DNA of 57,242 nt. Source: Kineococcus rubinsiae. GTDB lineage: Bacteria > Actinomycetota > Actinomycetes > Actinomycetales > Kineococcaceae. The notes below the pieces were generated by a model that saw nothing but the letters and a program-made list of their open reading frames with translations, was not told the DNA's origin and ran no database searches. Made by a program: the position numbers and the translations under genes. Of the stretch, positions 31,954 to 45,523 are shown piece after piece. The stretch is from contig NZ_VWPY01000029.1 in NCBI RefSeq assembly GCF_011839805.1, positions 1 to 57,242 of the forward strand, written 5' to 3'. Position 1 is the stretch's first letter. Each line of letters begins with the position of its first letter.

Positions 31954-32835
31954 ATGCACGTCTTCGTCACGGGCGGCACCGGCACGATCGGCTCGGCAGT
32001 CACCACCGAGCTGCTGGCCCACGGCCACACCGTCCTCGCCCTCGCGCGCTCCGAGGCGACGGTCGAGGCCCTCACCGCCGTCGGCGCCCAGCCGCTGCGG
32101 GGCTCCCTGGCCGACCTGGACGTCCTGCGGGCCGGGGCCTCCGCGGCCGACGGGGTGATCCACCTGGCCTTCAGCCGCGACTACGGCAGCCCCGAGTCCG
32201 TCGCCGCCGGGGTCGCGGAGGAGACGGCCGCCCTCACCGTCCTCGGCGAGGCGCTCGTCGGCACCGGCAAGCCGCTGGTCACCGTCTCGGGCACCCCGTG
32301 GATCCCCGGGCGGCCGTCGACCGAGGCCGACCCGCTGCCCACCGGCGGGCCGGTCGGCGGCCGCGCCCTCACGGTCACGGCGATCCTCGCCCTGGCCGAC
32401 CGCGGCGTGCGCGCCACGGCCGTGCGCCTGCCCCGCACCGTCCACGACCAGGGGCAGGGCGGCTTCGCGGGGATGCTCACGGGCATCGCGCGCCAGTCGG
32501 GCGTCTCGGGCTACCCGGGCGACGGGACCCAGCGCTGGCCGGCGGTGCACGCCCAGGACGCCGCCGTCCTCTTCCGCCTCGCCCTGGAGGGGGCACCGGC
32601 CGGCACGGCCTGGCACGCCGTGGCCGACGAGGGGGACGCGGTGCGCGACATCGCGGCCGTGATCGGGCGGCGGCTCGGGCTGCCGGTGCGCCCCGAGCCC
32701 GAGGAGAGCTTCGGCCCGTTCGGCCCGATCTTCGCGATGGACCAGCCCGCCTCGAGCGCCGTCACGCGCGAGGCGCTCGGCTGGGTGCCCCGGCACCCGA
32801 GCCTGCTGGCGGACCTGGAGCTCCTCGTCCCCTGA
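31954..32835 (+). CDS. SDR family NAD(P)-dependent oxidoreductase / epimerase-like
   Basis: A 293-residue extended-type SDR protein. The dinucleotide motif is GGTGTIG at residues 7-13 (GxxGxxG), with LARSEATV after the second strand suggesting NADP binding. The usual YxxxK catalytic pair is not evident, as in the atypical NmrA-like group. The C-terminal part holds substrate-site blocks (WPAVHAQDAAVLFRLALEG). It is preceded by GGAGGA at a good distance and controlled by the TetR operators. Close relatives are often annotated as SDR of unknown substrate, and that is as far as the sequence goes. Confidence 0.85.
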   Translation: MHVFVTGGTGTIGSAVTTELLAHGHTVLALARSEATVEALTAVGAQPLRGSLADLDVLRAGASAADGVIHLAFSRDYGSPESVAAGVAEETAALTVLGEALVGTGKPLVTVSGTPWIPGRPSTEADPLPTGGPVGGRALTVTAILALADRGVRATAVRLPRTVHDQGQGGFAGMLTGIARQSGVSGYPGDGTQRWPAVHAQDAAVLFRLALEGAPAGTAWHAVADEGDAVRDIAAVIGRRLGLPVRPEPEESFGPFGPIFAMDQPASSAVTREALGWVPRHPSLLADLELLVP

Positions 32836-32906: not shown

Positions 32907-33803
32907 TCACCCGGTTCCGAGCAGCATCTCCGTTGCGAGCCGGGCGATCTCCCGCGTCGCGGGCGACAGCACGCTCCCGCTGCGCATCACCAGCGCGACC
33001 GTGTCGTAGAGGGGTTCCGCGAACTCGACGACGCCCAGTTCGGGCGGGAACCCCGGGCTGCCCGCCACCGCCCGGCAGACGAAGGTGTCACCGATGCCGC
33101 GCGCCACGAGCTTGAGCGCCGCCTCGACGTGCTCGACCTCGATCAGCCCCTCGACCCGCACCCCCGCCAACCGGGCGCGCTCGGCGACTTGACGGCGGGT
33201 GGGGTCCTGCCAGCCGTAGTGGGCGTCGTAGACGATGAGCCGTGCCGCCGCCAGGTCCTCGGTGGTGACCGGACGCTGCAGGTGCGTGGGATCGGCGCTG
33301 GCGTACACCACCTCGTCGCGCATCAGCGGGGTGACGTCGAGGCCGGCGTCGTCGACGGGCAGCACCACGAGGCCCGCCTCCAGCTCGCCGCCGGCGACGG
33401 CCGCCGCGACCTCCACGCTGTTCTGCCCGATGAGCCGCGCCCGCACCTGCGGGTAGCGCTCGTGGAAGCGCTCGACCAGGTCGGAGAGCAGGTAGTAGTC
33501 GGCGTTGCGCAGGAGCCCGAAGCTGGCGACGCCGCCGCCGAGCGAGCTCAGGGAGCGCATCGCGGCGGCGCCACCGTCAGCGGCGGCCACCGACTGCTCG
33601 GCGAACGGCCGCAGCTCCTTCCCGGCCTCGGTGAGCAGGAGCCGACGCCCTCCGCGGACGAACAGCGCCGTCCCCGACTCCTCCTCCAGCCGGCGCACCA
33701 GCTCGGAGACCGACGGCTGGGACAGCTGCAGCTCGCGCGCCGCCGCGGTGAAGGAAGCCGTAGTGGCGGCCGCGAGGAACGCGCGCAGCTGGGTCAGCGT
33801 CAT
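32907..33803 (-). CDS. LysR family transcriptional regulator
   Basis: A 298-residue LysR-type regulator. The winged helix-turn-helix is residues 1-60 (LTQLRAFLAAATTASFTAAARELQLSQPSVS in parts) and the periplasmic-binding-like effector domain spans about 90-298. I chose the ATG at 33803 since LysR proteins start right before the LTQLRAF helix. It is divergent from the HisD-like gene with an 86-base gap containing a perfect inverted repeat and a second partial site. It therefore probably regulates the dehydrogenase-permease-hydrolase operon in response to its substrate or an intermediate. Confidence 0.9.
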   Translation of the reverse strand: MTLTQLRAFLAAATTASFTAAARELQLSQPSVSELVRRLEEESGTALFVRGGRRLLLTEAGKELRPFAEQSVAAADGGAAAMRSLSSLGGGVASFGLLRNADYYLLSDLVERFHERYPQVRARLIGQNSVEVAAAVAGGELEAGLVVLPVDDAGLDVTPLMRDEVVYASADPTHLQRPVTTEDLAAARLIVYDAHYGWQDPTRRQVAERARLAGVRVEGLIEVEHVEAALKLVARGIGDTFVCRAVAGSPGFPPELGVVEFAEPLYDTVALVMRSGSVLSPATREIARLATEMLLGTG

Positions 33804-33810
33804 GCTCCAC

Positions 33811-33833
33811 GCTCCCACAGGGATGTCCTGTGG
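33811..33833. promoter_or_regulatory. LysR operator candidate (9-bp inverted repeat) with downstream half-site
   Basis: TCCCACAGG and CCTGTGGGA are perfect arms around GATGT, beginning eight bases from the LysR start. TGTCCTGTG within the right half recurs at 33856-33864. This layout of one strong palindrome and one weaker site towards the target promoter is typical of LysR recognition and activation sites. Confidence 0.65.
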
Positions 33834-33889
33834 GAGGAGAAGGATGTACGCCCCTTGTCCTGTGACACCCCCGCTCCTACGGTCGCCGC

Positions 33890-35203
33890 ATGCGCCACAC
33901 CGCTGCTCTCCTGCGCCGTCTCGACGGCCGCTTCCGGGTGCTCAAGGCCCCCGCCGTCGACGCCCCCGCCGCTCAGCGCGATCCCGCCGTCGCCGCCCTG
34001 GTCTCCCGGATGCTCGGCGAGATCGAGTCCGGCGGCATGGACGCGGTCCTGCGCCACGCCCGCGACCTCGACCACCACGACGGACGCGACGTCGAGCTGA
34101 CCCGGGAGCAGATCGCCGCCAGCGGCGACGCCCTGCCGCCGGACCTGCGGGCCGCCATCGACCTCGGGTCCCAGCGCACCCGCGCCTTCGCGGCGGCCCA
34201 GCGCGAGCACCTCGTCGACTTCGAGGTCGAGCTGGTCCCCGGCCTCGTCACCGGACAGCGCTACGTCCCCGTCGGCCGGGTCGGCGCGTACCTGCCCGCC
34301 GGACGCTTCCCGCTCACCGCGAGCGCCTTCATGACGGTCGGGGTCGCCGACGTCGCCGGCGTCCCGTCGGTGGTGGCGTGCACCCCCCCGCAGCCGGGCG
34401 GGCACGCCAACGCCGCCGTCCTGTACGCCGCGCACGTCTCGGGAGTGGACCGGGTGTTCGTCCTGGGCGGGGTGCAGGCCCTGGCGGCGATGGCCTTCGG
34501 GCTCGTCGGCGACGCCCCGGTGGACATGCTGGTCGGCGCCGGGAACGCCTACGTCGCCGAGGCGAAGCGGCAGCTGTTCGGGACCGTGGCGATCGACCTG
34601 CTCGCCGGTCCCTCGGAGGTCGCGGTGATCGCCGACGAGAGCGCCGACCCCGTCGTGGTCGCGGCCGACCTGCTCGGCCAGGCCGAGCACGGCACGAACT
34701 CCCCCGCCGCGCTGGTCACGACGTCGGAGCAGCTGGGCACCGCGGTCCTCGCCGAGGTCGAGCGCCAGCTGGGCACGCTCGCCACCCGCGACGTCGCCGG
34801 ACCGGCCTGGCGCGACTTCGGCAGCATCACCGTCGCGCAGGACCGGGAGACCGCGGCCGCCCTCATGGACGACCTGGCCCCCGAGCACCTGGAGGTCCAG
34901 ACCGTCGACGACCGCTGGTACCACGACCGGCTCACCAACTACGGCTCGATCTTCCTCGGGCCGTGGTCGACGGTCGCCTACTCCGACAAGGGGATGGCCG
35001 GCACCAACCACACCCTGCCCACCGCCGGCGGAGCCAAGCACAGCGCGGGGTTGTCGGTGTCCCGCTACCTCAAGCCCCTCACCTACCAGCGGATCGCCCG
35101 CGAGGCCACGTCCGCCCTCGCCCCGGCCGTGCAGGTCATCTCGGACTCGGAGGGGATGGCCGCGCACGCAGCCACCGCCAGCCTGCGCACCGCGAGCGCC
35201 TGA
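33890..35203 (+). CDS. Histidinol dehydrogenase family protein (catabolic-type paralogue)
   Basis: A 437-residue NAD+- and Zn2+-dependent dehydrogenase of the HisD family. The expected zinc and catalytic residues are in place: Gln264 and His267 (GQAEHG), Glu332-His333 (APEHLEV), Asp366 (SDKGMAGTNH), His374 and His426. Its context is not histidine biosynthesis: it is LysR-controlled and followed by a permease and a nitrilase-family hydrolase. The SDKxxAGTNHTLPT block and one extra residue before GTNH resemble the sulfopropanediol dehydrogenase (HpsN) and related catabolic branch. Candidate substrates are L-histidinol or another amino alcohol or diol. The true hisD is expected elsewhere. Confidence 0.85.
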   Translation: MRHTAALLRRLDGRFRVLKAPAVDAPAAQRDPAVAALVSRMLGEIESGGMDAVLRHARDLDHHDGRDVELTREQIAASGDALPPDLRAAIDLGSQRTRAFAAAQREHLVDFEVELVPGLVTGQRYVPVGRVGAYLPAGRFPLTASAFMTVGVADVAGVPSVVACTPPQPGGHANAAVLYAAHVSGVDRVFVLGGVQALAAMAFGLVGDAPVDMLVGAGNAYVAEAKRQLFGTVAIDLLAGPSEVAVIADESADPVVVAADLLGQAEHGTNSPAALVTTSEQLGTAVLAEVERQLGTLATRDVAGPAWRDFGSITVAQDRETAAALMDDLAPEHLEVQTVDDRWYHDRLTNYGSIFLGPWSTVAYSDKGMAGTNHTLPTAGGAKHSAGLSVSRYLKPLTYQRIAREATSALAPAVQVISDSEGMAAHAATASLRTASA

Positions 35204-35209
35204 CCCAGC

Positions 35210-35270
35210 CCCCGCACCGACGAACCCCGCACCGACGAACCCCGCACCGGACGAACCCCCTGCACCGGAC
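35210..35270. repeat. Tandem 15-18 bp repeats between HisD-like and permease genes
   Basis: Two exact units of CCCCGCACCGACGAA (35210-35224, 35225-35239) are followed by two diverged units (35240-35255, 35256 to about 35273). They fill much of the 162-base gap between two genes of the same operon. No hairpin or promoter was recognised there. Confidence 0.7.
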
Positions 35271-35365
35271 AGACCCGCGCAGACCGGTCCCGCGCCCATC
35301 GCGGAGCGGATTCCCCGGAACTCCTCCGACGCCGCCCGTTCCGCACCCTCGCCCCCTGGAGTGAC

Positions 35366-36868
35366 ATGAGCACCTCGCCGCGCAGCACCGCACCCGCCCC
35401 AGGCCTCAGGCGCGAGCTCAAGGTCGCCGACGCCGCCGCCTTCTCCGTCGGCCTCATCGGTCCGGTGGGCGTCATGGCCCTGCTCGGCGCCGGCGCGGCC
35501 GGCATCCTCGGCGCGGGGGCGGCGTGGGCGTTCATCTTCGCCCTGGTCGCGGTCTCCCTCGTGGCCTACGGGTTCGTCCGCCTCTCCCGGTACATCTCCC
35601 ACACCGGGTCCGTGTACGCCCTGGTCGGCCTCACCCTCGGCCCGCGCGCCGGTTTCGTCGCCGGGTGGGCCCTGTTCGGGGCCTACGTCGCGATCGGCGC
35701 CGGGTCCGGCATCGAGATCGGCCTCTTCGTCGGCAAACTGCTGCGCGGCCTCGGCCTCGACGCCACCCCCGACTGGGCCGTCGTCGCCGTCGTCGCCCTC
35801 GCGGTCGTCCTCGCGCTCGGGCGACGCGAGGTCCGCGTCATCACCCGGTCCCTGCTGACGGCCGAGCTCGTCGGCGCCGTCCTCGTCACCGTGCTCTCGG
35901 TGGTCATCCTCGTGCGGCTCGCCGTCGGCACCGCCCCCGGCGGCCGGCACCTCAGCGTCGACTTCCTGGCCCTGCCCGCCGGCACGAACGTCAACGTCAT
36001 CGCGGCCGCCGCGGTCTTCGGGTTCCTGGCCTTCGCCGGCTTCGAGGGCGCGGCCACCCTCGGCGAGGAGACCCGCAACCCGCGGCGCGAGATCCCGCGG
36101 GCCCTGAAGATCGCCATCGCCGTCGTCGGGGTGTTCTACCTGGTGACGATCGCCGCGCAGTCGCTCGGGTTCGGCACCGACGCGGCGGGCGTCGCGGCGT
36201 TCAGCTCCTCGGAGTCCCCGTACGGCGACCTCGCCTCCGCGTACGTCGGATCGTGGCTCGCGGTGCTGCTGAACCTCGCCGCGGCGCTGAGCCTGTTCGC
36301 GATCCTCCTCGGGACCGTGTCCGCCGCCGCCCGCATCCTCTTCGCGCTCGGCCGCGACTCCGGGAGCACCCGCGGGGTGGCCCGGGCCTCGGCGGGCGGG
36401 GCGCCCGTGACCGCTCTCACGGTGTCGCTGGTGCTGGTCCTGCTCATCATCGCCGGGCAGCGCCTCGTCGTCGACGACGTCCTCGACGCCACGTTCTACG
36501 CCCTCACCGTCGGCACGATCGCCCTGCTCGTCGCCTACGTGCTCGCCACCCTCGGCGCGATCCGCTTCCTGTTCTCCCGCAACACCGTCGGTACCCGGCG
36601 AGCGCCCCTGTGGCAGGTCGCGGTGCCGGTGCTCGCCCTGGCGCTGGTGCTGTACACGATCTACCGCAACGCGGTGGGCCTCGACGCCCCGTACAGCTGG
36701 TTCCCGCTGGTCGTGGCCGGGTGGCTGCTCGTCGGCCTGGCCGTCGTGGCCCTCTCCCCCGGCCTGGCCGCGTCGGTGCGCAGCCGCCTGGCGCAGGCCG
36801 ACGCCGAGGCCACCGCCCGCCTCGACGCCGGCGAGCCGGCGCCCACCACCGCCGGGGGCCCGCAGTGA
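35366..36868 (+). CDS. APC family amino acid/polyamine permease
   Basis: A 500-residue permease with about 12 transmembrane segments. The first helix has the APC pattern AAFSVGLIGPVGVMAL with small residues at the unwound binding site. FAGFEGAATLGEETRNPRREIP is the signature loop after TM6 (in parts AGFEGAATLGEE and NPRREIPRA). It should import an amine or amino acid in symport with H+ or Na+. It sits between the HisD-like dehydrogenase and the nitrilase-family hydrolase, and its stop overlaps the start of the latter (GTGA), so it most likely imports the substrate of that pathway. Confidence 0.9.
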   Translation: MSTSPRSTAPAPGLRRELKVADAAAFSVGLIGPVGVMALLGAGAAGILGAGAAWAFIFALVAVSLVAYGFVRLSRYISHTGSVYALVGLTLGPRAGFVAGWALFGAYVAIGAGSGIEIGLFVGKLLRGLGLDATPDWAVVAVVALAVVLALGRREVRVITRSLLTAELVGAVLVTVLSVVILVRLAVGTAPGGRHLSVDFLALPAGTNVNVIAAAAVFGFLAFAGFEGAATLGEETRNPRREIPRALKIAIAVVGVFYLVTIAAQSLGFGTDAAGVAAFSSSESPYGDLASAYVGSWLAVLLNLAAALSLFAILLGTVSAAARILFALGRDSGSTRGVARASAGGAPVTALTVSLVLVLLIIAGQRLVVDDVLDATFYALTVGTIALLVAYVLATLGAIRFLFSRNTVGTRRAPLWQVAVPVLALALVLYTIYRNAVGLDAPYSWFPLVVAGWLLVGLAVVALSPGLAASVRSRLAQADAEATARLDAGEPAPTTAGGPQ

Positions 36869-37686
36869 CGCGGGTCGTCTGCGCCCAGCTGGCGCCGCGC
36901 CTGCTCGACCTCGACGCCAACCGGGCCGCGTCCACGGCCGCCGTCGAGGTCGCCGTCGCGGGCGGGGCCGACGTCGTGGTGCTGCCCGAGCTGGTCACCT
37001 CGGGGTACGTGTTCGCGTCACCCGAGGAGGCCGCCACCGTGGCGATCACCGCCGCGCACCCCGTGTTCGCGGACTGGGCCACCGCCGTCGGCAGCAGCGG
37101 CGCCGTCGTCGTGGGGGGTTTCTGCGAGCGGGGCGAGGACGGGCGGCTGCACAACAGCGCCGCGGTCGTCGACGCCACCGGGGTCCTGGCGGTCTACCGC
37201 AAGGTCCACCTGTGGGACCGGGAGAAGCTCGTGTTCACCGCGGGGACCGCGGTGCCCCCGGTGGTGGAGACGGTGCACGGGCGGATCGCGGTGATCGTCT
37301 GCTACGACCTCGAGTTCCCCGAGTGGACCCGCACCGCCGCGCTCGCCGGGGCGGACCTCATCGCCGTCCCGACCAACTGGCCGCTGTTCCCCCGGCCCGC
37401 GGGTGAGCACGCCGCCGAGGTCGTCATCGCCATGGGGACCGCGCGGCTGAACCGGGTGGCCATCGCCTGCTGCGACCGGTCGGGGGTGGAGCGCGGTCAG
37501 GAGTGGACGGAGGGGACGGCGATCGTCGACGCCGACGGCTGGGTGGTCGCGGCCGCAGGACCCGGCGAGGCGAGCGCGGCTGCGGACCTCGACCTCACGC
37601 GCTCGCGGGACAAGTCGTACACGTCCCTGGCCGACGCGTTCGCCGACCGCCGCCCGGAGCTGTACGCGGGCGTCGTCGCCCCCTGA
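36865..37686 (+). CDS. Carbon-nitrogen hydrolase (nitrilase superfamily)
   Basis: A 273-residue amidase/nitrilase-fold enzyme. The catalytic triad is visible as Glu42 (LPELVTSGY), Lys113 (YRKVHLWDRE) and Cys146 (VCYDLEFPEW), with the usual spacing. The HLWDREK segment is typical of amidase and omega-amidase or carbamoylase branches rather than true nitrilases, so an amide or carbamoyl bond is the likelier target. It starts with GTG inside the stop of the permease gene and ends the LysR-controlled operon. Its product may be an acid formed after the dehydrogenase step or an amide cleaved before it. Confidence 0.88.
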   Translation: MTRVVCAQLAPRLLDLDANRAASTAAVEVAVAGGADVVVLPELVTSGYVFASPEEAATVAITAAHPVFADWATAVGSSGAVVVGGFCERGEDGRLHNSAAVVDATGVLAVYRKVHLWDREKLVFTAGTAVPPVVETVHGRIAVIVCYDLEFPEWTRTAALAGADLIAVPTNWPLFPRPAGEHAAEVVIAMGTARLNRVAIACCDRSGVERGQEWTEGTAIVDADGWVVAAAGPGEASAAADLDLTRSRDKSYTSLADAFADRRPELYAGVVAP

Positions 37687-37809
37687 CCGGGGCGACGTCG
37701 ACGGCACGTCGCCGGGGTGCTCGGCTCGCCCACCACCGCGACGGGTCCTAGCGTCGTCCTGGTCGGACGCTCCCTGGCTCCGCATCCCCGCCGCGCTCCG
37801 GAGGCCGTC

Positions 37810-38739
37810 ATGCCGCTGCTCACCCGAATCCTCGACGCCCCCGTCAGCTGGACCTGGCTGGACGGCGTCGCCTCGCGCGCCTCCGAGGTCGTCAAGACCG
37901 TCCTGCCGCAGCCGGTGAAGGACGTGCTGCACGGCACGGTCATCGGGCACCCGCTGCACCCGGTGCTCGTCCAGGTCCCCGTGGGGGCCTGGACCTGCGC
38001 CGTCGTCCTCGACGTGCTCGCGACGCTCGTGCCGGGCCACGACGAGGGGCTCGACCGGGCGTCGGGCGCGCTGGTCATCACCGGACTGGCGGGAGCGGTG
38101 CCCGCCGTCGCGGCCGGCTGGGCCGACTACGCCGACCTGCACGAGGAGCAGCGCCGCATCGCCCTCGTCCACGCCGCCGCGAACGGCGTCTCGAGCGCCG
38201 TCTTCGCCCTCTCCGTCGTGGCCCGCGGGCGCGGACGCACCCTGGCGGCGCGGGGACTCGACCTGCTCGGCATGAGCCTGGCCGGGGGCGGGGCCGCGCT
38301 CGGCGGGCACCTGTCCTACCGCTGGGCGGCGGGCGCCAACCACGCCGAGGCGGTCCCCCACGTCACCCCGCGCGGGTGGTACCCGGTGGGGCGGTTCGCG
38401 GAGCTCGTCTCCGGCGAGCCGGTCGGGGCGAAGGTCGGCGACACGGGTGTCCTGGTGGTCCGGCGCGGCGACGACGTGTTCGCCCTCGCCGACGTGTGCT
38501 CGCACCTGGCCGCGCCGCTGCACGAGGGCGAGGTCGTCGAGGAGGGCGGGCGTCCGTGCATCGTGTGCCCGTGGCACCAGAGCGTGTTCTCCCTCACCGA
38601 CGGCGACGTCGTGCACGGGCCGGCGTCCTCGCCCCAGCCGGTCTTCGACACCCGGGTCGTCGACGGTGAGGTCCACGTGCGCGTCCGGGAGCTCCCGGGC
38701 GTGCCCGCGGCGGAACCCGTCGAGGGCGTCCTCGCCTGA
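37810..38739 (+). CDS. DUF2231 membrane domain fused to a Rieske [2Fe-2S] domain
   Basis: A 309-residue fusion. Residues about 40-180 form DUF2231 with four hydrophobic segments, opened by GHPLHPVLVQVPVGAW. Residues about 205-300 are a Rieske ferredoxin-like domain with the cluster ligands Cys230-x-His232 and Cys253-x2-His256 (CSHL and CPWH). It probably moves electrons at the membrane; the DUF2231 part may bind heme, as suggested for the family. No oxygenase or partner reductase is adjacent. The ATG at 37810 is chosen because homologues begin near LLTRILDAP. It may follow the hydrolase operon after 123 bases. Confidence 0.85.
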   Translation: MPLLTRILDAPVSWTWLDGVASRASEVVKTVLPQPVKDVLHGTVIGHPLHPVLVQVPVGAWTCAVVLDVLATLVPGHDEGLDRASGALVITGLAGAVPAVAAGWADYADLHEEQRRIALVHAAANGVSSAVFALSVVARGRGRTLAARGLDLLGMSLAGGGAALGGHLSYRWAAGANHAEAVPHVTPRGWYPVGRFAELVSGEPVGAKVGDTGVLVVRRGDDVFALADVCSHLAAPLHEGEVVEEGGRPCIVCPWHQSVFSLTDGDVVHGPASSPQPVFDTRVVDGEVHVRVRELPGVPAAEPVEGVLA

Positions 38740-42626: not shown

Positions 42627-43961
42627 ATGGCCGCTCCCCGCTCCTCGCCCGTGCCGCCCGACACCACCTACCTGGCGTCCGTGCGCGCCGCCACCGAACG
42701 CGCCGCGGCCACCGCGGCACCCCTGCCCAGCACCGCGGTCGGCGCCCCGGAAGGCCTGCTGGACGCGACCGAGAAGGCCGTCGAGGCCGCCGGCGACGAC
42801 CTGCTGGCCCTCAGCCACGACCTGCACGCCCACCCCGAGGAGGGGTTCGCGGAGCACCGGTCCGTCCGGGCGATCGCGGACCTCCTCGCCCGCCACGGCG
42901 TCGACGCCGAGATCGGCGTGCACGGCCTCGAGACGTCGCTGCGCGCGTCGGTCAGCGCGGGCGAGGGACCCACCGTCGCGGTCCTCGCCGAGTACGACGC
43001 GCTCCCGGGCATCGGGCACGGCTGCGGGCACAACGTCATCGCCTCCTCCGCGGTCGGCGCGTTCCTCGGGCTCAAGGCCGCGCTGGAGTCCGGCGAGGTG
43101 ACGGGCACGGCGCTGCTGCTGGGCACGCCCGCCGAGGAGGGCGGCGGCGGCAAGGAGCTGATGGCCCGCGAGGGCGCGCTCGACGGCGTCGACGCCGTGG
43201 TGATGCTGCACCCGTTCAGCTACGACGTGGCCGTGCAGCCGTTCCTCGGCCGCCGCCAGGTGCGGGCCACGTACACGGGCGTCGCCGCGCACGCCTCCGC
43301 GCAGCCGTTCATGGGCCGCAACGCCCTCGACGCGGTGGTCGCCGGGTACCAGGGCATCGCGATGCTGCGCCAGCACGTGCCGCCGTCGGACCGCGTGCAC
43401 GGCATCGTCGTCGACGGCGGGCAGCGGCCCAACGTCGTGCCCGAGCGGGCCGTGTCGGAGTACTACGTGCGCTCGGCCGACCCGGGGACGCTGCAGGACC
43501 TCTGCACGCGGGTCGAGGCGGTCCTCGTCGCGGCGGCCGCCATGACCGGCTGCGGGTACGAGCTGGAGTGGGACGCGCAGCCGGCGTACCTGCCGATCCG
43601 CGCGAACCTCGAGATGGCGGCCCGCTGGACGCGGCACCAGCAGCGCCGGGGGCGGACGTCGCTGCCCCCGGGCGTGGTGCCGGAGTCGCTGTCCGGGTCC
43701 ACCGACCTCGGCAACGTCAGCGTCCGCGTCCCGTCCATCCACCCGATGATCGCGATCGCGGGCCCGGACGCCTCCATGCACACGACGGGCTTCGCCACCG
43801 CCGCGGGTTCCCCCGCGGGCGACGCGGGGGTGCTCGACGGCGCGGTCGGGCTGGCGCTCACGGCCCTGGACGTCCTCGCCGACGCCGACCTGCTCGCCGC
43901 GGTGCGGGCCGAGTTCGAGGCCGCCGGCGGGGTGCTCGACGTCGCGGAGTTCCTCGCGTGA
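42627..43961 (+). CDS. M20 family amidohydrolase/peptidase (AbgB-like)
   Basis: A 444-residue dinuclear metallo-hydrolase. The metal ligands appear as HAHPEEGF, GIGHGCGHNV, TPAEEGGGGK and HPF. The dimerisation domain is about 200-320 (YTGVAAHASAQPFMGRNALDA in parts). M20D enzymes cleave N-acyl amino acids or peptides; AbgB of E. coli cleaves p-aminobenzoyl-glutamate. It has a 50-residue N-terminal extension ahead of the catalytic core. Its stop overlaps the start of an AbgT transporter gene (GTGA), matching the abgAB-abgT pairing of E. coli. The exact amide substrate is not determined. Confidence 0.88.
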   Translation: MAAPRSSPVPPDTTYLASVRAATERAAATAAPLPSTAVGAPEGLLDATEKAVEAAGDDLLALSHDLHAHPEEGFAEHRSVRAIADLLARHGVDAEIGVHGLETSLRASVSAGEGPTVAVLAEYDALPGIGHGCGHNVIASSAVGAFLGLKAALESGEVTGTALLLGTPAEEGGGGKELMAREGALDGVDAVVMLHPFSYDVAVQPFLGRRQVRATYTGVAAHASAQPFMGRNALDAVVAGYQGIAMLRQHVPPSDRVHGIVVDGGQRPNVVPERAVSEYYVRSADPGTLQDLCTRVEAVLVAAAAMTGCGYELEWDAQPAYLPIRANLEMAARWTRHQQRRGRTSLPPGVVPESLSGSTDLGNVSVRVPSIHPMIAIAGPDASMHTTGFATAAGSPAGDAGVLDGAVGLALTALDVLADADLLAAVRAEFEAAGGVLDVAEFLA

Positions 43962-45523
43962 GCGCGCCGGCGACGGCCCGGCCCACGCGCGTCGACCGGC
44001 TCCTCGGCGGGGTCGAGCGCGCGGGGAACCGGATCCCCGAACCCTTCGTGCTGTTCCTCGGCCTGTTCTCGGTCCTGGCCGTCGCCTCCACGGCCATGGC
44101 CGCGGCCTCCGTCGAGGTGGAGGTCCCCGGTTCGGGTCAGGTGCAGGCGGTGCGGGGACTGTTCACCGTCGAGGGCGTGCGGTGGCTGACGACGAACCTC
44201 GTCGACAACTTCGTCTCGTTCCCGCCGCTGGGCACCGTCGTCGTGATCCTGCTGGCCGTCGGCCTCGCCCAGCGCAGCGGCCTGTTCGCCGCCCTCATCA
44301 AGGTGGCGTTCGCGGGGGCGCCGTCGTGGGCGCTGCCCTACGCGGTCGCCGCGGTCTGCATGGTGGGCCACGTCATGGCCGACTCCGTGATGATCGTCAT
44401 CCCGCCGCTGGCCGCCATGGTGTTCAAGGCCGCCGGCCGCCACCCCGTCGCGGGGCTGCTCGGCGCGTTCGCCGCGGCCGGGGCCGCGTACTCGACGTCG
44501 TTCGTCGTCACGAGCCTGGACGCCCTGTTCTCCGGCATCACCAGCTCCGTCGCGGCGTCGCTGCCGGACGCGGGAACCCCCGTGACGCCCGTGTCGAACT
44601 GGTACTACAACATCGCCTGCTCGGCCGTGCTGACCGTGGTCTGCGGGCTGCTCATCACGCGCGTGCTGGAACCGCGGCTGCGCCGCCTCGGGGTCCCCGA
44701 CACCCAGGTCGAGGACTCCGGCGGGATCGGCACGGTCGAGGACGTCGACGACCTGACCGTGGACGCCACCGCGCGCCGCGGCCTGCGGCAGGCCGGGCTG
44801 GCCGCCGCGGTCACCGCCGCCGTCCTGCTGGTTCTGACGCTCGTGCCCGGGTCGCCGATGCGCAACGAGAGCGGCGGCTACCTGCCCGAGTCACCGCTGC
44901 TCGACTCCGTCGTCTTCCTCGTCGTCGCGCTGCTCACCGTCCCGGCGCTGGCCTACGGCCGCTCGACGGGGTCGCTGCGGCGGGTCGTCGACGTCCCCGC
45001 CGCGATGGGCGAGGCGGTGCGGGACATGGCGCCGTTCATCGTGCTGGCCTTCGTGCTGGGGCAGTTCATCGCCCTGTTCACGTGGAGCCGCGTCGGCACC
45101 TGGATGGCGGTCGCGGGCGCCGACGGGCTGCAGTCGCTGCACCTCACGGGGTTCGAGGCCGTCGTCGGGTTCATCCTGCTGGCGTCGCTGCTGAACCTGT
45201 TCATCACGTCCGGGTCCTCGATGTGGACCATCATGGGCGCCGTCTTCGTCCCGCTGTTCGCGCTGCTGGGCTACGAACCCGCCTTCACCCAGGCCGCGTT
45301 CCGCGTCGGCGACTCCGCGACGCAGATCCTCACGCCGCTGAACCCCTACATCGTCATCGTCCTGGCCATGCTGCGCCGCTACGAGCCGCAGGCGGGGCTG
45401 GGGACGCTCATCTCGCGGTTCCTGCCCTTCACGATCTGCTTCTGGATCGCGTGGGTCCTCATGCTGTCGCTGTGGTTCTTCCTCGACCTGCCGTTCGGGC
45501 CGGGCCAGCACGCACGCCTCTGA
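43958..45523 (+). CDS. abgT: AbgT family transporter
   Basis: A 521-residue integral membrane protein with about 11-13 hydrophobic segments and the AbgT signatures NRIPEPFVLFLGLF near the start, PPLGTVVVILLAVGLAQRSGLF and FVLGQFIALFTWS. AbgT of E. coli imports p-aminobenzoyl-glutamate; other members export sulfonamides, so either direction is possible. It is co-translated with the M20 amidohydrolase, which favours import of an amide that is then cleaved. The GTG start overlaps the stop of that gene. It converges on the carboxylesterase gene with a gap of seven bases. Confidence 0.9.
   Translation: MSAPATARPTRVDRLLGGVERAGNRIPEPFVLFLGLFSVLAVASTAMAAASVEVEVPGSGQVQAVRGLFTVEGVRWLTTNLVDNFVSFPPLGTVVVILLAVGLAQRSGLFAALIKVAFAGAPSWALPYAVAAVCMVGHVMADSVMIVIPPLAAMVFKAAGRHPVAGLLGAFAAAGAAYSTSFVVTSLDALFSGITSSVAASLPDAGTPVTPVSNWYYNIACSAVLTVVCGLLITRVLEPRLRRLGVPDTQVEDSGGIGTVEDVDDLTVDATARRGLRQAGLAAAVTAAVLLVLTLVPGSPMRNESGGYLPESPLLDSVVFLVVALLTVPALAYGRSTGSLRRVVDVPAAMGEAVRDMAPFIVLAFVLGQFIALFTWSRVGTWMAVAGADGLQSLHLTGFEAVVGFILLASLLNLFITSGSSMWTIMGAVFVPLFALLGYEPAFTQAAFRVGDSATQILTPLNPYIVIVLAMLRRYEPQAGLGTLISRFLPFTICFWIAWVLMLSLWFFLDLPFGPGQHARL

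Follow-up and report, generated by a model that had tools for sequence, protein, structure and literature searches.

The HisD-type dehydrogenases described so far oxidise a substrate of the form X-CH(NH2 or OH)-CH2OH twice, each time with NAD+, to give the acid, with the X group binding zinc, as set out in PMC11382572. In that paper, HpsN carries the motif G-R-Y-A/S-H, with His126 responsible for sulfonate recognition and Lys353 assisting, and HisD carries the motif G-S-A-P-L. Here we compare these enzymes with HisD1, a HisD-family zinc dehydrogenase encoded within positions 32907-37686 of a 57,242-nucleotide contig of Kineococcus rubinsiae (NZ_VWPY01000029.1). This whole stretch is the window, contig C41 of a 4.88-Mb host genome in 119 contigs. 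The hisD1 gene lies beside genes for a LysR-type regulator, an APC-superfamily permease and a nitrilase-superfamily C-N hydrolase, and all four genes are as an initial annotation of the DNA had described them. That annotation suggested a catabolic unit and named L-histidinol or a 3-carbon sulfonate as guesses at the substrate. We favour neither of these, and consider that the locus is on balance a self-contained LysR-controlled catabolic regulon (hisD1, permease, hydrolase) for an amide-bearing amino alcohol or polyol, sometimes available as a glycoside.

HisD1 (33890-35203, plus strand; 437 aa; PF00815, 421 bits) when aligned with E. coli HisD retains Q264, H267, D366 and H426 as zinc ligands and E332 and H333 as the catalytic pair, the hallmark of biosynthetic HisD that the initial annotation had pointed out. 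Its closest solved structures by sequence are HpsN (PDB 8v35, 376 bits) and an (R)-DHPS dehydrogenase (347 bits), with histidinol dehydrogenases at 256 bits or less. HisD1 and HpsN have 49% identity over 405 residues and hold in common the zinc and catalytic residues and the DK of the zinc loop, and this degree of identity fixes the predicted fold of HisD1 as theirs in common. HisD1 is less close to E. coli HisD (37% identity) and to the HisD of contig C58 in the same genome (41%); the fold and the zinc and catalytic residues are again common, as is the PL of the E. coli GxxPL loop. The two distinguishing places in HisD1 read GRFPL and then DK, HisD-like at the first and HpsN-like at the second. 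GRFPL departs from G-R-Y-A/S-H, and Leu142 stands where HpsN has His126, whereas Asp352 (a zinc ligand) and Lys353 of HpsN are kept as D366 and K367 (the HpsN residue numbers of PMC11382572 are one below the chain count used in our alignment). Both HisD rows compared have Tyr, not Lys, after the zinc Asp. The pocket for X would thus differ from those of the known enzymes, in that the sulfonate His is missing and a Lys is present that the histidinol enzymes compared do not have.

These residues bear directly on the proposal that HisD1 acts on sulfopropanediol (DHPS) or another C3 sulfonate in an HpsN-like role. The proximity of HpsN among solved structures and the conserved Lys would suit such a role. 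The residue assigned to sulfonate recognition in PMC11382572 is, however, Leu in HisD1, and Leu or Ile at this position in all 47 distinct sequences that carry the insertion described below; HpsN also falls on another branch of the tree. Because His126 is replaced, we rejected a sulfonate as the substrate and regard it as very improbable.

HisD1 further differs from HpsN in having one extra residue behind DK, within the block SDKGMAGTNH. The initial annotation had remarked on this residue, and it proves to be a real feature of a group of enzymes. It is present in 32 of 32 close relatives, in six of six relatives at 60-63% identity and in each of 10 class-level loci, which makes 47 of 47 distinct clade rows versus 0 of 66 other HisD-like rows (the class-level rows were picked by the SDKGMAGTNH-type motif, one per locus, and L122 is the same stretch as L031). 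In a tree of 106 rows, built by a quick method without bootstrap, with the insertion column dropped by the filling threshold and with duplicate or partial rows left out, the 38 insertion rows form one clade (SH-aLRT 100) set apart from E. coli HisD and HpsN. HpsN falls on the side of HisD2 (98), a second HisD-type enzyme found in relatives. HisD1 does not group with E. coli HisD, at a split of 99 that is to be read in light of the quick method, the long outgroup branches and the presence of two HisD rows only. Both the E. coli and the C58 HisD are placed outside the insertion clade. The 32 close HisD1 relatives alone are not monophyletic, with L028 outside the others. Judged by sequence, HisD1 is a third type in the HisD/HpsN superfamily that fits neither characterised kind.

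The host genome holds three HisD-family genes, namely hisD1, one on contig C58 and one on contig C25. The C58 enzyme groups with E. coli HisD and is presumably biosynthetic. HisD1 neither clusters with E. coli HisD nor is the only HisD of the genome. No his gene was found among the window neighbours scanned with family models, in agreement with the earlier placement of the dehydrogenase outside a histidine operon. Separately, the C25 gene is HisD2-like and belongs to a second catabolic-looking HisD locus (L084:2802-14008, own genome), in which it stands beside LacI, MFS and SDR genes; the same stretch holds aldehyde dehydrogenase-like, primary-amine oxidase (further upstream of the HisD gene), APC permease and Zn alcohol dehydrogenase-like genes. 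Among the relatives, locus L026 comes from a record titled Vibrio cholerae 35D, yet its HisD1 groups with those of Streptomyces and Curtobacterium, and it encodes a LysR with 65% and a hydrolase with 57% identity to actinobacterial ones; the assembly is probably mislabelled or contaminated.

The association of these genes was followed in 32 HisD1 loci, defined by a HisD1 of at least 69% identity: 28 from a scan of the best 80 of 592 candidates, which is not a random sample, together with the window and three loci from other genomes of its genus. Presence thresholds were set by hand (LysR at least 50% identity, hydrolase 42%), genes in the relatives come from a codon-score caller that misplaces some starts, and most of these loci span only ∼8 kb on each side of the gene, some less. 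Counting the window, 30 of 32 loci have LysR and 25 of 32 the hydrolase, versus 2 and 1 of 46 loci of farther HisD relatives. The LysR-linked catabolic unit suggested by the initial annotation is thus supported and recurs in other actinobacteria, and the hydrolase is found in most of the similar clusters. An APC permease of the window type occurs in six of the 32 loci (the window, L011, L017, L020, L029 and L036), each time with LysR and the hydrolase, and the order hisD1-permease-hydrolase is confined to L029, L036 and the window. The permease is thus the variable part of the set and the hydrolase the constant part. Within the genus, four of 11 genomes encode HisD1, and in all four the best hydrolase match adjoins it (in the window, after the permease). 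In the class, only 12 of 394 genomes, our own included, match HisD1 at E ≤ 1e-150, so the enzyme is patchy there. The six relatives at 60-63% that carry the insertion have no LysR or hydrolase above the thresholds; the L035 hydrolase stands at 33%.

The hydrolase gene (36865-37686, plus strand; PF00795; 1j31, 1.4e-33) encodes the Glu-Lys-Cys triad of the nitrilase superfamily as E42, K113 and C146, and the motif is found in 24 of the 25 locus hydrolases, L015 departing from the pattern only in the letters after Cys. The protein shares this motif, its length and its best matches with the PH0642-like/N-carbamoylputrescine amidase-like branch, but fails the cut-offs of the named families, scoring below the curated threshold of all 11 NCBIfam models listed (best 145 versus 500 bits). 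We tried to read its function from paralogues in the genus (43-51% identity) and gave this up, since their neighbours differ (by eye, LacI with a further APC permease; an ABC system; fucosidase/sugar-isomerase genes) and indicate no single substrate. Selenocysteine was likewise considered and rejected. Three matches were flagged for a TGA; in the L093 alignment this codon proves to be the normal stop at the C-terminus, and the two remaining alignments finish on the same Tyr, ahead of a stop. The permease gene (35366-36868, plus strand; PF13520/PF00324) encodes a protein with distant similarity to the GkApcT/cationic amino acid transporter group (PDB 5oqt, 2e-11). Its stop overlaps the hydrolase start by 4 nt (GTGA at 36865-36868, with a GTG start and a TGA stop), so the co-translation put forward in the initial annotation is plausible.

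Where the permease is replaced, the importers of the other HisD1 loci are of unlike type: NCS1 in two, maltose-type ABC binding proteins in eight, ribose-type ABC in two, other APC in two and MFS in one of the 32. The class-level loci bring NCS1 (L114, L117 and L118) and an amino-acid-type ABC system (L119). GH13 glucosidase genes occur in eight of the 32 loci, among them some with a replaced importer. The sugar importers and glucosidases weigh on the other of the earlier substrates, according to which HisD1 would oxidise L-histidinol, or a close imidazole amino alcohol, to histidine and the permease would import it. The HisD fold and chemistry would suit histidinol, as would the alignment of Leu142 with Leu138 of E. 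coli HisD and the resemblance of the permease to cationic amino acid transporters. HisD1 nonetheless resembles HpsN (49%) more than it does E. coli HisD (37%), and its K367 is of the HpsN type where the two HisD rows have Tyr. Histidinol would also leave the conserved hydrolase without a role and sits poorly with the sugar importers and glucosidases of the sister loci. We therefore consider histidinol unlikely. Given the HisD1 pocket, the C-N hydrolase and importers that range over amino-acid, nucleobase and sugar types, the substrate class we prefer is an amino alcohol or polyol that bears an amide.

The regulator gene (32907-33803, minus strand) encodes 298 aa from its likely start, ATG 33803 (the listed open reading frame opens at GTG 33818), and the product has the HTH_1 and substrate-binding domains that mark a LysR-type regulator (PF00126 and PF03466). 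Regulators of this type usually have a T-N11-A dyad near -65. In the 86-bp gap between the LysR and hisD1 starts lies a perfect 10-bp inverted repeat, CTCCCACAGG-GATGT-CCTGTGGGAG (33812-33836, no strand assigned), whose core at 33815-33833 is a T-N11-A dyad upstream of the divergent hisD1; it is conserved, and we predict that it is the LysR operator. Its centre is 66 bp upstream of the hisD1 start. The gap also contains TGTCCTGTG twice, 32 bp apart. A putative -35 element, TTGTCC (33855-33860, plus strand), was read from the sequence, with T at -35 in 29 of 31 loci, and a putative -10 element, TACGGT (33878-33883, plus strand), was read by eye, with a 17-bp spacer and 6 nt before the ATG. Many relatives show, again by eye, TTGTCC-like and TAG/TAC-like hexamers followed by an ATG 6-7 nt later. 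A leaderless hisD1 transcript with the operator near -66 is therefore possible. The architecture would then be that of known LysR-type operators, a T-N11-A dyad near -65 of the likely start, whereas the operator sequence and the possible leaderless start are particular to this regulon.

In the relatives, where the site was taken as the best consensus match within 130 bp of hisD1, the consensus is near CCAYAGGNNNNNCCTRTGG, and 30 of 32 loci have the site centred 65-68 bp ahead of the hisD1 start; the L026 site looks equivalent after start correction. In leave-one-out scans, the operator-like site is the top site of the whole locus in 28 of 32 cases. Held-out loci with a LysR relative have it as the best site in 7 of 7 distinct sequences, 65-67 bp before hisD1, which in L117 holds once the start is corrected (the site is 187 bp from a called start that lies ∼120 bp inside the gene, and LysR is called there only as an 88-aa piece). 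Held-out loci without LysR have no site at the 65-67 bp position (three of three, two of them of one genus). The held-out L113, L115 and L116 have 85-87% DNA identity to training loci, the others less. Across the 524 kb scanned, 28 primary and 8 further sites score at least 9, versus 1.5 expected from Markov-1 resampled sequence. The six best further sites (at least 9.9) are at promoters of permease, hydrolase or LysR: upstream of the permease operon (L017, L020), at the LysR start (L011, L017), in the hydrolase/LysR gap (L028) and in the permease/LysR gap (L024). L038 and the betaproteobacterial L083, which have a related LysR and no insertion-type HisD1, also carry high-scoring sites, found before LysR, before an ABC-SnoaL-hydrolase operon (L038) and ∼115 bp upstream of hisD (L083). 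In the 4.88-Mb own genome, the pattern CCACAGGNNNNNCCTGTGG with at most one mismatch occurs once, at the hisD1 operator, and among ten relatives zero-mismatch sites occur in three genomes, all at hisD1 only. The operator and its conservation are a new finding and, since sites stand before separately transcribed permease and hydrolase genes in relatives, the gene set reads as one regulon.

Several observations weigh against the reading that we favour. A hydrolase above 42% is missing from seven of the 32 loci: three (L013, L016 and L023) are truncated close to HisD1, one (L028) has a hydrolase at 33%, and the other three (L012, L021 and L024) show none. L022 carries the hydrolase but neither LysR nor the operator site, and no LysR or hydrolase is listed in the neighbourhood of the HisD1-like genes of the low-GC L031 (= L122) and L121. 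As for the sites themselves, that of L011 is weak (rank 5), L092 has two further sites (9.0-9.2) with no explanation, and in the ten relatives the one-mismatch pattern is no commoner than a reversed control, which equals or exceeds it. Finally, with importers this varied, more than one compound may be handled by the regulon.

L031 (= L122) and L121 are from actinobacteria with small genomes and a GC content of 0.47-0.48, and their insertion-type HisD (61%) lies beside E1-E2-E3 2-oxoacid dehydrogenase-like genes (by eye). Around the LysR-HisD1 pair of Nocardioides zhouii (L021:1904-13745) we see a fused large-medium subunit of a propanediol/glycerol-family dehydratase, a urea-carboxylase-type permease, a Zn alcohol dehydrogenase and an aldehyde dehydrogenase.

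From the gene content, active-site residues, clade membership, gene association and operator conservation that were observed directly, we infer chemistry, step order, DNA binding and substrate class as follows. LysR would bind the inverted repeat, whose centre is 66 bp from the hisD1 start codon (itself possibly the transcription start), and with its inducer would switch on hisD1, permease and hydrolase. The permease would bring in a small N-bearing molecule. HisD1 would act as HisD and HpsN do: with two NAD+-dependent oxidations, a terminal CH2OH whose neighbouring carbon bears an OH or amino group would become a carboxylate. The hydrolase would cut a C-N bond, either in this molecule or in its product, to release ammonia or an amine; the bond is most likely that of a carboxamide. 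The gene set thus probably serves to break down an N-containing sugar-like or amino-alcohol compound.

A larger cluster surrounds the set in relatives. In the three other HisD1-bearing genomes of the genus, hisD1 and the hydrolase gene occur with LysR, tandem SnoaL, double cupin, LacI, HisD2, SDR and HpaI aldolase genes. An alpha/beta hydrolase is encoded nearby, and two of these genomes also have a maltose-type ABC importer there. Among the 32 HisD1 loci, cupin is found in 16, LacI in 15, SnoaL and HisD2 in 14 each, SDR in 13 and HpaI in 12. The cluster extends to another phylum: plasmid NZ_CP140100.1 of Deinococcus sp. AB2017081 (L124) carries two hisD genes, aldolase, alpha/beta hydrolase, cupin, a sugar ABC importer, three ester cyclases and a carbon-nitrogen hydrolase. 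Query searches of the window genome, run with no positive control, found no SnoaL or cupin relative, and its one aldolase relative (41%) lies elsewhere; the small regulon therefore appears to stand alone there. Among open-licence literature, we found by titles and abstract starts no relevant paper on the larger cluster or its gene combinations.

The bigger set implies that the molecule may have several parts. HisD1 and the hydrolase could then act on different fragments of a larger glycoside or conjugate, the hydrolase scavenging N and HisD1 opening a carbon route, and the many relatives that hold both within the bigger set, with its second HisD, SDR, aldolase, SnoaL and cupin, are in keeping with this. 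The two nevertheless stay together in the window genome, where the rest of the set was not detected in the searches just described, and we hold such a division of labour to be doubtful next to action on one molecule or its product. More tentatively, and with somewhat less than even confidence, we propose that the regulon is a module of an undescribed pathway present in more than one phylum. This pathway would comprise two distinct four-electron dehydrogenases of HisD type, an SDR, an HpaI-type aldolase, tandem SnoaL, a double cupin, and enol-lactonase-like and nitrilase-type hydrolases, would be aimed at an abundant N-containing glycoside (e.g., an iminosugar or amino-polyol conjugate), and would make HisD1 the enzyme of a third substrate class in the HisD superfamily. 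Proteobacterial HisD2-type clusters were also seen by eye in L063 and L082, with SnoaL, LacI, alpha/beta hydrolase, methionine-synthase-like, HpaI aldolase, sodium-symporter-like and TonB-receptor-like proteins; the aldolase and methionine-synthase likeness was checked in L063, and a GH1 beta-glucosidase in L082.

The remaining features of the locus lie between and around these genes. The gap of 162 nt from the hisD1 end to the permease start includes a 15-bp tandem repeat of 3.3 copies (35210-35259, plus strand), and no promoter or terminator pattern was found at 35150-38000. The flanking epimerase-like gene (31954-32835) and DUF2231/Rieske gene (37804-38739) have no relative in the 80 loci at E ≤ 1e-8, and so seem not to be part of the gene set. 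About 5 kb downstream of the set, at 42660-45523, the stop of an M20-family amidohydrolase gene overlaps the start of an AbgT-family transporter gene, another possible amide-uptake pair.

Taken together, the regulon is better supported than sequence alone could show, and the substrates proposed earlier are not supported. HisD1 scores above the cut-off of the NCBI histidinol dehydrogenase model TIGR00069, and the name histidinol dehydrogenase is also attached to more distant relatives (all <60% identity) in 20 of 21 plasmid records, so catabolic functions may hide under a biosynthetic name. The active-site signature described here tells apart at least three types within the HisD superfamily. 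Moreover, the dedicated operator makes the substrate findable, as the compound sensed by LysR would be the substrate or close to it.

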